From a virus: a DNA stretch of 38,803 nt. The translations under genes were made by a program, and so were the position numbers. The notes beneath the pieces were generated by a model that was not told the DNA's origin, did no database searches, and saw only the letters and a list, made by a program, of their open reading frames with translations. Below are positions 1,755 to 12,297 of the stretch, one piece after another. Position 1 is the stretch's first letter; each line of letters begins with the position of its first letter. The stretch covers positions 1-38,803 of IMG/VR virus record IMGVR_UViG_3300030105_000473; one strand, given 5' to 3'.

Positions 1755-3842
1755 ATGGCTGATAATTATTGGGGAAATATGTCTCGCGCTGTTCTTGGTC
1801 AAGGCTTGGCTATGGGCTGGGGCGATGAGCTTGAAGCTAAAATCAGAACTTTATCTGGGGATGAAACCTACGAAGAAGAACTGAACATGATCAATGATAG
1901 CTACAATAAATTTTCAGAAGAAAACACAGGCGCTGCGTTAGCCGGAGAAGTGGCTGGCGGTTTTGTTCCTTTGATTGGATCTTATTTAGCCACAGGATTA
2001 TCAGGCGGTGCAGCAGCCCCAGCTGCTATTGCTAACTCAGCGCGTATGCTTAGTGTCCTAAATAAAATTAGGCAAGGAACTCAGACAGCAACTCAAGCAG
2101 CCAAGTCTTCAAAGATTTTAAACAATCCTTTGACGAATAATCCTTTAACTAGATTAGGCAATAAGGTTGCTACAGGAACAGGAAAGGTACTTGTTAATAA
2201 CCCTCTTGGCAGAGGATTTACAGCTGGAACAACCACAGGCCTTGTAGACGGCGCTGGCGCTGCTGATCAAGGAGAAAGAGTAAAAGGTGGTTTAATAGGA
2301 TCAGCATTTGGAGGAACGCTAGGATTGGCTCTTCCAATCACAGCAAGAACTGGTAAAGCTTCATGGAATTGGCTTTCGGAACGCCTGCTTGCCGATGATT
2401 CAGATATTACAGAGGCGGCTCTTGCAAGAATATTTAAGGCCGTAACCTCTAGAGGTGGAAGCATTAAAGACGTTGTAGATCAAGTAAATCTTGATAGATC
2501 TAGGGGCATTGATCAAAGCACTATAGCTAACGCAAGTCCAGCTTTAGCTAAACAAGCTAGATTTGTACTAAATGCTCAACGTGGAGATGCTCCAGAAATA
2601 ATTGAAGAAGAAGTTGGAGGAATGCTGGCTGGATCACGCCAAAAAGCAGCTCAAGCAGTTAAAGATAGTTTAAGCGAAGTTAACTATTACGATCAGCAAG
2701 ATTTGTTACTTGGAGAGCTTAGACGAAATGCAGACGGTGCTTACAAAAAAGCTTACGCATTTGGATTAGTAGACGATCCTAGAATAATGACTCTTCTTGC
2801 AGAAGATGACAACTTTAAAGCCGCTTACAATAGAGCACAGGCTATCGCTAAAACAGAACAAAGTGCAGCTAAATTAAGAGGTGAGTTGCCTAGTGATTTT
2901 GCAATGATTGATCTTAATGTAGAAGGCGCTATTCCTGATGTAAGAACGCTAGATTACATTAAACGCGGCATGGATGACTTGCTAAGAAAAGGTAAAACAA
3001 ACTCAGACGGCGGTCTTGGTCCGACAGAAACATCTGCCATAAGAGGCTTAAAAAATGATTTTCTTAATGTGCTTGATGAAGCAACCACAGTTGATGGCGT
3101 TTCAGAGTACAAAGAGGCTCGTAAGCTTTATAAAGGCGACATTGAGGTTCTTGAGTCCTTAGAGATGGGTCTTGAAAATTTTCAAAGCATGGCTCCAGAA
3201 GAAGTTAAGAGGATGCTTAACGACCTTAGCGCAGCTGAAGCTGAGAGCTTTGTGATTGGTGCAACAAGAAGTATATTGAATAAAATTACTAATCCTAGAG
3301 GAAACTCTAACTACGCACTTAATGTAATTAACGCGCCAGCGGATGCAACAAAGCTTAAAATGCTGTTTCCAGATGCTAAAAAAGAAGGATTTAAACTTTT
3401 AGAGGCCGTTCTTTTAAGAGAGAGCCAACTTTATAAACAAGGAAATAGAATTCTGGGAGGATCTTCAACTCAATCAAATCAAGCTGGAGTTAGAGACTTA
3501 GAAGATTCAGAAGGTATGGGTAATGCTATGGCTACGGGTTTAGAGACACTTTTTAACCCTACTTCGGGTCTTCTTAGGTTTGCAACCAATGCGCTAAGGT
3601 CTGCAAAATTGCCTGAAGCAACTCAAGAAAAAATGGCAACAATGTTGATGTCAAAAGATCCAGAAGATGTTTCAGCTGTAGTTAAGGCTTTGCAGGAATT
3701 TCAAGAAAAGAACACTCCTAAAGTTATTAACCTTAATACAAATGAAGTTCTTGCAGTTTCAGGAGCGGCAAACTTATTGGCTGAAGATCCTAAAGAAACT
3801 CCGTCAACATCAAGAGCAGCAGACGAATTACTGGTGGAATAG
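1755..3842 (+). CDS. Putative internal virion / DNA-ejection protein
   Basis: A 695-residue protein starting at an ATG preceded by GAGGGCAGGA. Residues of about 65-100 form an Ala/Gly-rich hydrophobic stretch (AGEVAGGFVPLIGSYLATGL), and another Gly/Ala-rich stretch lies near residues 155-200. The rest is helical and charged. This composition, with membrane-active-looking glycine zippers near the N-terminus, resembles ejection proteins of podoviruses, but I recognise no named family. It is co-directional with the preceding large virion gene and precedes the lysis genes. The C-terminus overlaps an open frame in the -1 register (3794-4021), so a longer frameshifted product is possible though unproven. 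Confidence 0.65.
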   Translation: MADNYWGNMSRAVLGQGLAMGWGDELEAKIRTLSGDETYEEELNMINDSYNKFSEENTGAALAGEVAGGFVPLIGSYLATGLSGGAAAPAAIANSARMLSVLNKIRQGTQTATQAAKSSKILNNPLTNNPLTRLGNKVATGTGKVLVNNPLGRGFTAGTTTGLVDGAGAADQGERVKGGLIGSAFGGTLGLALPITARTGKASWNWLSERLLADDSDITEAALARIFKAVTSRGGSIKDVVDQVNLDRSRGIDQSTIANASPALAKQARFVLNAQRGDAPEIIEEEVGGMLAGSRQKAAQAVKDSLSEVNYYDQQDLLLGELRRNADGAYKKAYAFGLVDDPRIMTLLAEDDNFKAAYNRAQAIAKTEQSAAKLRGELPSDFAMIDLNVEGAIPDVRTLDYIKRGMDDLLRKGKTNSDGGLGPTETSAIRGLKNDFLNVLDEATTVDGVSEYKEARKLYKGDIEVLESLEMGLENFQSMAPEEVKRMLNDLSAAEAESFVIGATRSILNKITNPRGNSNYALNVINAPADATKLKMLFPDAKKEGFKLLEAVLLRESQLYKQGNRILGGSSTQSNQAGVRDLEDSEGMGNAMATGLETLFNPTSGLLRFATNALRSAKLPEATQEKMATMLMSKDPEDVSAVVKALQEFQEKNTPKVINLNTNEVLAVSGAANLLAEDPKETPSTSRAADELLVE

Positions 3843-8422: not shown

Positions 8423-8538
8423 AGTCCTTCCTCACTATAACTGTCACAGGTGTGACAACATTTAGGCTCGTTCATGTCATAAAATGCTTCAACTTTAGCA
8501 TAATAATCCTTAACTATTTTAGGCTGCAGATGTCGCAT
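8335..8538 (-). CDS. Cys-rich small protein, probable zinc binder (67 aa)
   Basis: Starts MRHLQPKIVKDYYAKVEAF with AAGGAG 5 bases upstream. It overlaps the helicase end by 20 bases. The central CCHTCDSYSEEGLCQ followed by QCEEW near the C-terminus gives a C-x2-C-x8-C-x16-C type arrangement seen in many small phage proteins that read C-x2-C-x-(Y/F)-x(n)-C then CxxW before IPF. These are assumed to be structural zinc fingers of unknown role. Its last 88 bases overlap the VRR-NUC gene. Confidence 0.72.
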   Translation of the reverse strand: MRHLQPKIVKDYYAKVEAFYDMNEPKCCHTCDSYSEEGLCQEYLIAPPEDFAQQLNQCEEWLPIIPF

Positions 8539-10126
8539 AATTTCTCCTTATAATGTTGAAATACCTTCCGTTCTTTTCGTAATCAATCTCGACTGGTGGA
8601 ACTGCTTGATTAAACGCCACTGAGGCTTGATGTAAGCCGTTTGCAGCAACTAACTCTGCATGGCACCCACTTGCATGAGCAATCGTATTAATCTGCCCTA
8701 GAGCCTTTTGTCCAGCGTATCCGCTGTGAAGCACACAGAAGTATTCGCTGATCGGCTTATCGCTGAGAGATGGTCCGAAATAAGTAGCTTTGAGCATGTC
8801 ATTGCCAGCCCGGCTCGTGTACTCGCTCCATTCCCAGCTTGCCACCGACATCTTTAGTTCACTGTCAGTGCCCATTATGCAATCATCACGAAGTTGCATA
8901 AGAGGTTTGTTATCGCTCTCTGGAAATTCGTAGCCACAGGCTGGGCAAACCATAACAGATATGTGGACGATCTCATGACAATTGTCACACACTTTAACCG
9001 GGGCTTCGCCTGTGCCGCTGCCTGACTTTTGTGGTGGTCGAACTCTCACTATGGGGCCGTGTGTATAAATGTTGCCAGCAAAGTCTAAGACCATGCAGTG
9101 GTCAACATGGCTCTTGGGTCTAAGCCCACGCCCAGCCATTTGCATATAAAGGGCAGGAGACATCGTAGGCCGAAGCATTACGATTAAGTCAATGTCAGGA
9201 AAGTCAAAGCCAGTGGTCAACACGTTAGCGTTAGTCAGTGCCCGGATCTCACCAGCCTTGAATTGCCTAATCATTTCGGCACGTTCTCCTACTGGCGTTT
9301 TACCGGTGACACACGCTGCCTTGATGCCCTGATCATTTAAGCCCTGGGCAATGTTCTCTGCATGAGAGATACCTGTGCAAAAGAACAGCCAGTGCCTGCA
9401 CTCTACTGCCCTGCTCATCACTTCCTGAATCACTTGATGGTTGGTTTCGTAGTTATCTACTGCGGCTTGAAGCTCTGACTCAATGTACTCACCGCCACGT
9501 TTGTGAACGCCGTCAACATTCAATCGTGTCTCGGTGCTTTTGCTGTGCATGGTAGACAAGTGACCCTTGTGGACCAGTTCCTCAATAGTCACAGGCTCAA
9601 TGCGGTCATCAAACAGGGCACCATCCTCGTCTATATAGCCATGGCCAAGTCTAAATGGCGTGGCTGTTAGCCCAATGACCCTAAGATGAGGATTAATATC
9701 AAATAGCTGCTTGATCAAATCTCGGTAGCCTCCCTCTTCTTTGTGTGAAATCAAGTGGCACTCATCGACTATAATTAAGTCAACGTGCCCAATGTCTGGC
9801 GCACGTTTACGAATAGATTGAATGCCAGCAAATGTAATTGGCTCTGATAGATTTTTCTGTCTAAGCCCGGCGCTGTAGATGCCCATGGGGGCACCTTGCC
9901 AGTGCTCACGCATTTTACTGGCGTTCTGTTGAATCAATTCTTTTACATGAGTGAGCATCAACACTCTTGTCTCTGGCCATTGAGTTAACGCATCTTTGCA
10001 TAGCTCGGCCACAATGTGACTTTTACCACTGCCTGTAGGTAGTACCAAGCAAGGGTTGCCTTGGTTGTTTCTTAACCAATCGTAGAGCAGGTCAATGGAT
10101 CGCTGCTGATATTCTCTTAGTTTCAT
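8519..10126 (-). CDS. SF2 DEAD/DEAH-like helicase
   Basis: A 535-residue superfamily 2 helicase. Q-like LREYQQRSI is at residues 3-11, motif I PTGSGKS at 30-36, motif II DECH at 121-124 and motif III TATP at about 154. The second RecA domain carries TTGFDFPDIDL and motif VI QMAGRGLRPK. A four-cysteine zinc ribbon follows (VCDNCHEI, then VCPACGYEF), plus a C-terminal extension. It likely unwinds or remodels DNA during replication or recombination. The ATG at 10126 is preceded by AGAGGG and gives a standard N-terminus. A longer open frame begins inside the upstream gene. It lies 4 bases from the upstream stop. Confidence 0.92.
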   Translation of the reverse strand: MKLREYQQRSIDLLYDWLRNNQGNPCLVLPTGSGKSHIVAELCKDALTQWPETRVLMLTHVKELIQQNASKMREHWQGAPMGIYSAGLRQKNLSEPITFAGIQSIRKRAPDIGHVDLIIVDECHLISHKEEGGYRDLIKQLFDINPHLRVIGLTATPFRLGHGYIDEDGALFDDRIEPVTIEELVHKGHLSTMHSKSTETRLNVDGVHKRGGEYIESELQAAVDNYETNHQVIQEVMSRAVECRHWLFFCTGISHAENIAQGLNDQGIKAACVTGKTPVGERAEMIRQFKAGEIRALTNANVLTTGFDFPDIDLIVMLRPTMSPALYMQMAGRGLRPKSHVDHCMVLDFAGNIYTHGPIVRVRPPQKSGSGTGEAPVKVCDNCHEIVHISVMVCPACGYEFPESDNKPLMQLRDDCIMGTDSELKMSVASWEWSEYTSRAGNDMLKATYFGPSLSDKPISEYFCVLHSGYAGQKALGQINTIAHASGCHAELVAANGLHQASVAFNQAVPPVEIDYEKNGRYFNIIRRNYATSAA

Positions 10127-10130
10127 AAGT

Positions 10131-10988
10131 CTAACCCTCTTCAAATAAATCACCTTGACACCCAAAGACTTCGCAACTTTCAGCGCAGCCACCATTATTT
10201 CCTCGCATTCTCAAAAGAATCTCGTCTTTACTAACGTCTGCAAATGAATCCTGGGCGCTTTTAAATGTGTTATTGCCGCGATACATAATCAAAGGATCAG
10301 TAACTCTTGTATCAATAATTCGTATAGGTTGAGTGTTTAGCATATCCCAAAACTCAGCCGCTAATTCTGGCTCGTCAATTGCAGCAAGGGCTATCTTGTT
10401 GACTCCTTTCTTGATGCAAAAAACACAGTTGCCTAGCCATTCATCAATTCCTAAGTCAAATGGCTGAGTCTTCCAAAAACCTAAAATGTCTTGCTTATCC
10501 ATAGGTGATATTTCAGCCAAAAATCTGTAACCCTTTTTAGGCTTTAATCGCCTTGGCTCGTCAATCCTAATGCCAAGCCATGAGGTGTAATTGTTGCGCC
10601 CAAAAGTTTCATCACAGTATTTTTTATAAGGCGCTGTTTTCATTCGATCTGTACACATTGCTCCGTGAATAAATGGCGTGGAGTAACACTTCATCATTTC
10701 TTTCCAGGGGCCGTAATCATCACAAATATCATCAATACTTACTTCTTTATACTTTGGGCCAATGCCAACCTCTGTAGTCATTACCGCCCTAATACAAACT
10801 AAATCTATTTCAAAATGACTAACAACCTGTCTAATAAATTCGTATGTCTTGGGATGCTCTGCGCCTGTGTCCATAAAAACATACTTGACGTTATTAATAA
10901 GCCCTTGAGACACCATTGTCTGTATTCGATAAATCATGTACGCAGACGTTCGTCCTCCGCTAAAGCTAACTACGTTATATTCATTCAT
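10131..10988 (-). CDS. PAPS-reductase-like PP-loop protein
   Basis: A 285-residue protein of the phosphoadenosine-phosphosulfate reductase/ATP-pyrophosphatase superfamily. The N-terminal VVSFSGGRTSAYM is the PP-loop, FMDTGAEHPKT follows at the second strand, and CTDRMKTAPYKKY and GIRIDEPRRL are conserved further on. WLGNCVFCIKKG gives a Cys pair, and three Cys lie near the C-terminus (CAESCEVFGC), which may bind an Fe-S cluster. Phage members are common and are suspected to act in sulfur-dependent modification of nucleic acid rather than sulfate assimilation, but that is unproven here. It overlaps the methyltransferase by 8 bases. Confidence 0.85.
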   Translation of the reverse strand: MNEYNVVSFSGGRTSAYMIYRIQTMVSQGLINNVKYVFMDTGAEHPKTYEFIRQVVSHFEIDLVCIRAVMTTEVGIGPKYKEVSIDDICDDYGPWKEMMKCYSTPFIHGAMCTDRMKTAPYKKYCDETFGRNNYTSWLGIRIDEPRRLKPKKGYRFLAEISPMDKQDILGFWKTQPFDLGIDEWLGNCVFCIKKGVNKIALAAIDEPELAAEFWDMLNTQPIRIIDTRVTDPLIMYRGNNTFKSAQDSFADVSKDEILLRMRGNNGGCAESCEVFGCQGDLFEEG

Positions 10989-12282
10989 GTTGCATTTTTC
11001 CGTTTTTTGATTCTAATTCCTTTGATAAAACCATCCAAGCTTTAGCGGCAGTTTGAGGCACTACTCCGTTTCCCAAGAGTCTAATCCGGTCCACCCGGTC
11101 GGCACACCCATCAACCACTCGACCCAGTCGGGGTTCAAGTGGCCAGAGACTATGTCCACTCCCACTCCCCCAATTGCTGCGTTCGGAAGCGCATCGAATC
11201 TCCTGCTCTTGCCGTCCTTGCGCGTCAATGCATTTTCCTTGTAACCGCCCTTCCAGTCTCTCGTTGTTGGAGTTGGTAACATTTCCTGATCGAAAACTAT
11301 TGCCGTCAGATTGTTCTGATGATTGTCTCGCATCTTCTTTGTCGCCTTGTCCGAGTCCTGAACTGTTGGTGTCGGCCACATCTTCACTGCAGTCGCTAAC
11401 CCGTCCCCACTCGTTTTGCTCATTCCTTTTTGATTGTAATTCCCATGAACTGTCGGCGTAGGCCAAGCTCCCCTCTCTGCTATCTGATCGTTTAGGTTTG
11501 CTGACCATCCCCTCTCGACTCCATGAATTCCTCCCTTCCAGTCTCTTGCCATAGGAGTTGCCCACTGAGCTGGCTCTCTCACTATCACTTCTGTCTCCAA
11601 GCGCTTCTTCGGATTTCCCAGTTCTATCTCTTTCTGAGATGGACCATTCACTGAACTGACTCTCGGTGTTGGCCAATCGGCTTCCGCTCTGCCCACGCTC
11701 CGACTTAATCCTGCCTGCAGGCTGTTTATCTCGCAGTGTGGAGTCTTGTTCGCATCGTTGACCGCTGGCGTACCCCATGATGTAGACTCGCTTTCTCTGA
11801 TGAGGAGCGCCGACTTCACGCGCTGAGAATATTCCCCACGCCGTTTTATAACCAAGGCTTTCCAAGTCGCTAATGACTTCTCTGAGTCCAAGACTGATGT
11901 GTCCTTCGACATTTTCAAAAAAACATCGAACAGGTCTAACTGCTCGGATGATGTCGCAGATGTAGGGCCAGAGGTGTCTGGGGTCTTCTTCTCCAAGTCG
12001 ATTTCCAGCGGAGCTAAAAGGTTGGCAGGGATAACCGCCAGTGAGGATGTCAACTCGGTCTCGAAATGGCTCCACTGGCAAGGTTTTAAGATTCGACCAC
12101 ACAGGTGCGGCATCCATTTTATTCGCTTCCATCTTGGTAACCAAGTTCGCAATGGCGAAGGCTTCGATCTCCACATGAGCGATGACTCGATGTTCAACTC
12201 CTGCAAGGTCAAGTCCTCTTTCGACTCCACCATATCCTGTACATAAGGAGAGGACAGTTGGTAATTTTTGGGTAGTATCCAC
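10981..12282 (-). CDS. DNA C5-cytosine methyltransferase
   Basis: A 433-residue C5-MTase. Motif I is LCTGYGGVERGLDLAG, motif IV is GGYPCQPFSSAG with catalytic C86, motif VI is FFENVEGH at 121-128, motif VIII is PHQRKRVYIMG, and motifs IX-X are DRIRLLGNGVVPQTAA. Between VIII and IX lies an Asn/Ser/Arg/Gly-rich stretch of about 200 residues with repeated LANTES/VADTNSS-like units in place of an ordinary target recognition domain. The start is GTG (ATGTG, shared with the overlapping frame) behind AAGGA. It probably protects phage DNA from host restriction or marks it. Its DNA is shared with the 407-codon frame. Confidence 0.9.
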   Translation of the reverse strand: MDTTQKLPTVLSLCTGYGGVERGLDLAGVEHRVIAHVEIEAFAIANLVTKMEANKMDAAPVWSNLKTLPVEPFRDRVDILTGGYPCQPFSSAGNRLGEEDPRHLWPYICDIIRAVRPVRCFFENVEGHISLGLREVISDLESLGYKTAWGIFSAREVGAPHQRKRVYIMGYASGQRCEQDSTLRDKQPAGRIKSERGQSGSRLANTESQFSEWSISERDRTGKSEEALGDRSDSERASSVGNSYGKRLEGRNSWSREGMVSKPKRSDSREGSLAYADSSWELQSKRNEQNEWGRVSDCSEDVADTNSSGLGQGDKEDARQSSEQSDGNSFRSGNVTNSNNERLEGRLQGKCIDAQGRQEQEIRCASERSNWGSGSGHSLWPLEPRLGRVVDGCADRVDRIRLLGNGVVPQTAAKAWMVLSKELESKNGKMQHE

Positions 12283-12284
12283 AT
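11061..12284 (-). CDS. Overlapping frame within the methyltransferase, WPTP-repeat protein
   Basis: A 407-codon frame on the same strand, entirely overlapping the methyltransferase. The nominal ATG is at 12284, two bases before the methyltransferase GTG, and both share AAGGA. From about residue 115 it reads like a known phage protein type: SSEQLDLFDVFLKMSKDTS, TWKALVIKRRGEYSQRVKSA, six W-(P/A/G)-TP-like repeats (WPTPTVHGN, WPTPTVQDS, LPTPTTRDWKGG and others) and LNPDWVEWLMGVPTGWT near the end. I recall such proteins being annotated as methylase-associated in phages. The first about 110 residues look like shadow sequence, so the real product may begin internally. Function unknown. Confidence 0.55.
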   Translation of the reverse strand: MWILPKNYQLSSPYVQDMVESKEDLTLQELNIESSLMWRSKPSPLRTWLPRWKRIKWMPHLCGRILKPCQWSHFETELTSSLAVIPANLLAPLEIDLEKKTPDTSGPTSATSSEQLDLFDVFLKMSKDTSVLDSEKSLATWKALVIKRRGEYSQRVKSALLIRESESTSWGTPAVNDANKTPHCEINSLQAGLSRSVGRAEADWPTPRVSSVNGPSQKEIELGNPKKRLETEVIVREPAQWATPMARDWKGGIHGVERGWSANLNDQIAERGAWPTPTVHGNYNQKGMSKTSGDGLATAVKMWPTPTVQDSDKATKKMRDNHQNNLTAIVFDQEMLPTPTTRDWKGGYKENALTRKDGKSRRFDALPNAAIGGVGVDIVSGHLNPDWVEWLMGVPTGWTGLDSWETE

Positions 12285-12297
12285 TTATTTTTCCTTT

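Follow-up and report, generated by a model that had tools for sequence, protein, structure and literature searches.

Two reading frames under purifying selection at a viral C5-cytosine methyltransferase locus

Organization of the locus

The window, meaning the whole stretch of 38,803 nucleotides that was analysed, is part of a 42-kb virus record. Its minus strand hosts a C5-cytosine methyltransferase (C5-MTase) gene, denominated here frame A, and a second long frame, denominated frame B, which overlaps the first in the +1 phase. The two frames and their parts are the following.

10981-12282, minus strand: frame A, C5-cytosine methyltransferase chain of 433 aa with a GTG start (PF00145, E 1e-34; PHROG 363, E 1e-57)
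11061-12284, minus strand: frame B, overlapping protein of 407 aa in the +1 frame, its ATG 2 nt upstream of the GTG of A (PHROG 1008, E 4e-30; constraint tests)
12280-12284, minus strand: double start ATGTG (ATG of B at 12284-12282, GTG of A at 12282-12280)
12291-12296, minus strand: AAGGAA, putative single ribosome binding site for both starts (a similar purine-rich stretch is found upstream in relatives)
11758-12282, minus strand: codons 1-175 of A, catalytic half with motifs I-VIII (A strongly, B weakly but significantly constrained)
11134-11757, minus strand: codons 176-383 of A, unconstrained filler in A and, in the other register, the W(P/A/G)TP repeat array of B (omegaA 0.94-0.99, omegaB 0.10)
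11088-11138, minus strand: residues 383-399 of B, LNPDWVEWLMGVPTGWT, methyltransferase motif IX region in frame B (single-frame relatives aligned by profile to canonical C5-MTases; conservation)
11026-11115, minus strand: residues 390-419 of A, RVVDGCADRVDRIRLLGNGVVPQTAAKAW, motif X in frame A, overlapping the end of B (last 35 overlap codons constrained in both frames)

Both the methyltransferase starting at the GTG at 12282 and the 407-codon second frame had been called in the initial annotation. Both are confirmed, the former by the PF00145 match, which spans residues 9-248, the latter by the lack of any stop between the ATG at 12284 and the end of the frame at 11061. Chain A features motifs I-VIII in order within codons 1-175, including the PCQ catalytic loop (GGYPCQPFS) and ENV (FENVEG), and motif X near its end. 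The parts of a C5-MTase are not gathered in a single chain here: motif IX and the repeats are located in frame B, motif X in frame A. PHROG 1008 matches B along two stretches, the best of which corresponds to residues 76-252; frame B matches no model in Pfam and NCBIfam, and no match was obtained in an Rfam search. The elements initially described in B, namely six W/L-x-TP repeats, RDWKGG twice and the closing segment, are all present, and the repeats visible in the two frames are indeed one DNA read in two registers. The ATGTG behind the single AAGGAA is likewise found as described, and the double start is conserved in the clade.

A PAPS reductase-like gene (PF01507; 10131-10988, minus strand) lies directly after the methyltransferase and overlaps its last codons; it overlaps in turn, by 65 nt, the ORF of a ResIII/DEAD helicase (8519-10195). 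None of the neighbouring genes checked could be recognised as a partner restriction enzyme.

Selection on the two frames

Homologues were gathered with B as query and, independently, with A as query, and frame B is open in the same phase in the homologues found by either. The loci, having been collected for their resemblance to one frame or the other, do not form a random sample. The number of stops expected in B was calculated by keeping the A protein fixed and resampling synonymous codons according to the codon usage of neighbouring genes. At the window locus, the first 175 codons of B hold no stops, against 11.8 expected. In 58 representatives the N-half of B holds 35 stops against 490 expected, and is stop-free in 46 loci against 0.2 expected; when only the synonymous codons of each gene were shuffled, the expectation was of 205 stops and 0.8 stop-free loci. 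In these loci the antisense and +2 frames carry 8-20 stops on average, and none of these frames is free of stops at any locus. Stops had been thought to be scarce also in other frames, a reservation that these counts answer. Eleven ordinary C5-MTases carry 8-40 stops in the +1 frame. Chance opening of B was rejected on the basis of codon resampling and of the stop-ridden antisense frames. Full-length B is not universal, as in certain lineages (K1G type, some gut and actinophage loci) the frame becomes open only after about 20-110 codons of A.

Constraint was measured by a four-class test, in which single isolated substitutions between close pairs are sorted as changing A, B, both or neither. 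In 27 independent pairs omegaA is 0.10-0.12 and omegaB 0.31-0.36 over codons 1-175, and omegaA is 0.46-0.56 and omegaB 0.10-0.12 in the C-half; doubly synonymous changes were few (30 and 24). In seven neighbour genes used as control the phantom omegaB ranges from 0.79 to 1.34. Finer bins reveal constraint in both frames at codons 1-40 and over the last 35 codons, mild B constraint at codons 41-120, and a middle region constrained in B only, where A is neutral (0.94-0.99). This fits the initial remark that the methyltransferase has low-complexity filler at the place of the target recognition domain (TRD), as omegaA is about 1 there. The constrained frame flips likewise in a second clade (50 pairs). 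No flip was observed in the clade with single-frame enzymes, where the B value given A-synonymous changes is 1.24, a figure derived from only seven doubly synonymous changes. The NN/NS ratio was dropped as a measure of B constraint, being confounded, as the fused clade also gives 0.37; B constraint was hence judged from SN/SS and stop counts. Indels were counted only at well-flanked gaps between relatives. All 43 clean indels are multiples of three, and many, 87-198 nt long, fall in the repeat array; whole repeat modules are accordingly gained or lost in frame.

Frame B encodes a second protein that is under selection. Purifying selection acts on A and B alike, and the constrained frame switches from A to B past motif VIII. 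The early suggestion that one gene encodes two proteins agrees with the stop depletion and with the constraint seen in both frames. Stops in homologues and constraint limited to one frame, the two outcomes indicated at the outset as contrary to dual coding, were looked for, and dual coding was not refuted.

Relatives of the overlapping pair

The start region is conserved. Of 67 loci in the clade of the window, 62 retain a double start, [AG]TGTGGAT preceded by a purine-rich site (one of them as TTGTG). In these window-like loci ATGTG occurs 49 times, GTGTG 12 times and TTGTG once, A starting at GTG and B at ATG, GTG or TTG. In the second clade the NTG of A and the ATG of B are 4 nt apart in 116 of 188 loci. 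The conservation of an out-of-frame ATG at a weak GTG start would be hard to explain unless the codon is used.

Some relatives carry all the parts in one frame. Unlike the window locus, the actinophage enzymes IrishSherpFalk gp71 and prophiT49-1 gp22 are single chains featuring motifs I-VIII, L-P-T-P repeats, EWMxGWP and motif X. Single-frame fusions comprise L117, L123 and 40 more actinophage loci, and many single-frame actinophage enzymes have stops in the +1 frame of their N-half. PHROG 1008 matches residues 268-457 of the prophiT49-1 enzyme L123 (E 3e-64). In a profile comparison the LNPxWVEWLMGxP segment aligns with canonical motif IX, being placed by the global alignment, with a separate local match that is weak alone; a short fusion aligns to PF00145 end to end. 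The predicted model of the fused enzyme resembles M.HhaI, with a confident motif IX/X end and an unfolded repeat array. Judged from the single-frame relatives, the PHROG 1008 match and the motif IX alignment, the C-half of B is the methyltransferase's own specificity/motif IX segment. This is at odds with the initial proposal that B is an older protein overprinted by the methyltransferase, or with its simple reverse. In some actinophages a single frame holds both motifs I-VIII and the counterpart of the C-half of B. The informative frame is hence A for the N-half and B for the C-half, and over motif IX/X both are informative.

Across all loci, B carries from none or one up to seven W-x-TP-like repeats, spaced by about 33 residues; in the window they occupy B residues 170-340. 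These variable in-frame modules recall multi-specific phage C5-MTases, which have several target recognition units. AlphaFold2 modelling of B alone was uninformative (pLDDT 50), and as the repeats are unfolded even in the single-chain relative, it is their position that suggests a DNA-reading role.

The motif IX segment is in the +1 frame relative to motifs I-VIII in 281 of 284 loci; of the remainder, two are single-frame and one is off phase. By source, the +1 arrangement is found in 79/80 genome loci, from many phyla, in 193/193 viral loci and in 9/11 phage records. Most loci have motif X in A, and 13 have it in B. Of the loci with X in A, 257/263 have this frame open up to X, though the linker is unconstrained; A is interrupted before X in L062, L133, L166, L183, L229 and L284. 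With X in B, A ends before reaching it in 13/13 cases. One of the loci with motif X in B, L016, is a near relative of the window.

In L133, L166, L183 and L062 a stop is found in A after or near motif VIII, and X is still in frame A downstream. This may reflect decay, an assembly error or a third arrangement.

In a tree of the N-half, whose root was not inferred, the overlapping state is the commonest and is spread throughout, and single-frame forms are restricted to actinophage loci and their neighbours. In 16 whole genomes, chosen because the family is present in them, every PHROG 1008 match coincides by coordinates with a PF00145 locus, and no stand-alone B, that is, a B lacking an overlapping C5-MTase N-half, was found. 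In 14 control genomes PF00145 was detected in 10 and PHROG 1008 in none. The idea of B as an independent older protein was rejected, as no stand-alone B was found in the 284 loci and 16 whole genomes.

Single loci show further peculiarities. In L073, from a virus contig, an HNH-like stretch, CERCGGTETLHRHHLDNDPTNNQSKNLMVLCSKCHGSLH, is found in frame B at about 3300-3660, between the LNPDWVEWLM segment and motif X, and looks like an endonuclease-type insert. In the Myxococcus genome of L188 (G014) the overlapping pair occurs at least three times, on separate contigs. Copies L148 and L156 are located in contigs binned as archaea (Euryarchaeota, Poseidoniaceae), the archaeal label coming from binning alone.

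A probable two-chain methyltransferase and its precedents

The locus is likely, in our judgement, to encode one C5-cytosine DNA methyltransferase made as two polypeptides from fully overlapping frames. Chain A, starting at the GTG, would provide the cofactor and catalytic motifs I-VIII, then a linker of about 200 unconstrained residues, which need only stay free of stops, and then motif X. Chain B, starting at the ATG 2 nt upstream and served by the same ribosome binding site, would provide the W-x-TP array at the TRD place, whose repeats may read DNA, and motif IX. The two chains would associate after translation, as in naturally split C5-MTases. Production of both chains, their binding, the activity and the two-chain assembly are presumed from the sequences compared. 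Most probably the phage employs the enzyme for methylating its own genome, as a defence against host restriction.

A programmed +1 frameshift, by which translation starts in A and a fraction of ribosomes slips into B after motif VIII to yield a fusion of the A N-half to the B C-half, would account for the flip of the constrained frame just past motif VIII, and single-frame fusions of like composition do exist. This explanation is nonetheless unlikely, as it leaves unexplained the open and constrained N-half of B (35 vs 490 stops) and its own conserved start. Moreover, a fused product of the window type would lack motif X, which sits in A under constraint. In split loci the stop of A is found at varied distances (3 to >50 codons) and in varied contexts, and no slippery motif shared by these stops was seen on inspection by eye. 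In a frameshift gene the second frame is free of selection for openness upstream of the shift, and codon resampling reveals such selection here. A pure frameshift was rejected on stop depletion, conserved double start and contexts of the A stops.

Even less probable is that B, as a genuine protein, has a function of its own, for instance acting on host restriction, and is no part of the methyltransferase. Its own start and its own, mildly constrained, N-half are compatible with such a role, as is the lack of a model for B in Pfam and NCBIfam. Yet no B was found without an overlapping C5-MTase N-half in the 284 loci and 16 whole genomes, the C-half of B corresponds to the C-half of the enzyme in single-frame relatives (PHROG 1008, L123 residues 268-457), and the frame that holds motif X, A or B, differs between loci. 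That B is an untranslated echo, kept open by codon bias and by the conservation of A, which is high in the N-half and partly conserves B, is strongly disfavoured and highly improbable, in view of the codon resampling, of omegaB values well below the neighbour-gene control, of the lack of constraint in A where B is constrained, and of the stop-ridden +1 frames of ordinary C5-MTases.

The two-chain reading can be extended beyond the window, with somewhat less assurance than for the locus itself. The locus probably represents a widespread class of C5-MTases, hosted by phages and prophages of many phyla, in which the specificity subunit is encoded in the +1 frame of the catalytic subunit, with starts 2-4 nt apart behind one ribosome binding site. 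Few known same-strand overlaps would be as long and as broadly conserved as this one, which standard annotation would have missed. Motif X would change frame between relatives, and the modular repeats of B would let specificity evolve, the A register tolerating any stop-free sequence. If so, many phage and prophage 'DNA cytosine methyltransferases' are half-enzymes with an unannotated second half, and any activity or specificity deduced from A alone would be mistaken. With its single-frame, split and overlapping versions side by side, the enzyme would offer a replicated system for two long proteins evolving in one DNA stretch. Three E. coli prophage copies have an open B of 244-343 aa unlisted in RefSeq, and one of them is called an incomplete pseudogene. 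The E. coli prophage methyltransferase L358 (NZ_CP126602, 2057081-2059789) is given in RefSeq as two incomplete pseudogene pieces; A is open there for 404 codons and B for 343.

Parts of the arrangement have been recorded before. PHROG 363 (A) and PHROG 1008 (B) are both labelled DNA methyltransferase, and the overlap of the frames is not stated there. In Escherichia phage K1G, ORF31 (putative C-specific methylase) and ORF30 (putative Mte8-like protein, matching PHROG 1008) are both annotated, and are nested in the same +1 phase; unlike in the window, B is shorter and starts 88 nt inside A. No published account of the K1G pair as one enzyme, and no description of the overlap family, was found in the open-access papers covered, most subscription journals being outside the search.

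M.EcoHK31I is the nearest precedent for the window locus; M.EaeI is also a two-polypeptide C5-MTase. In a 1995 paper the smaller chain of M.EcoHK31I was reportedly read from another frame inside the gene of the larger one, and the chains of the window locus similarly overlap in different frames. By its published description, M.EcoHK31I has a larger chain with motifs I-VIII and X and a smaller one with motif IX (PMC3404938), as A and B have in the window. Its TRD is predicted in the large chain (PMC3404938), whereas in the window omegaA is about 1 between motifs VIII and X and the repeats are in B. In contrast to M.EcoHK31I, the overlap spans here both proteins almost wholly, the start is shared, and motif X can sit in B. 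In M.AquI the split falls after motif VIII, and the second chain carries IX and X (PMC3404938); L016, L069, L104 and L124 are split in the same way, but their second frame overlaps the first, mostly from or near its start. What is added over the known systems is the breadth of the family, the flip in constraint, the shared double start, the exchange of motif X between frames and the single-frame relatives.
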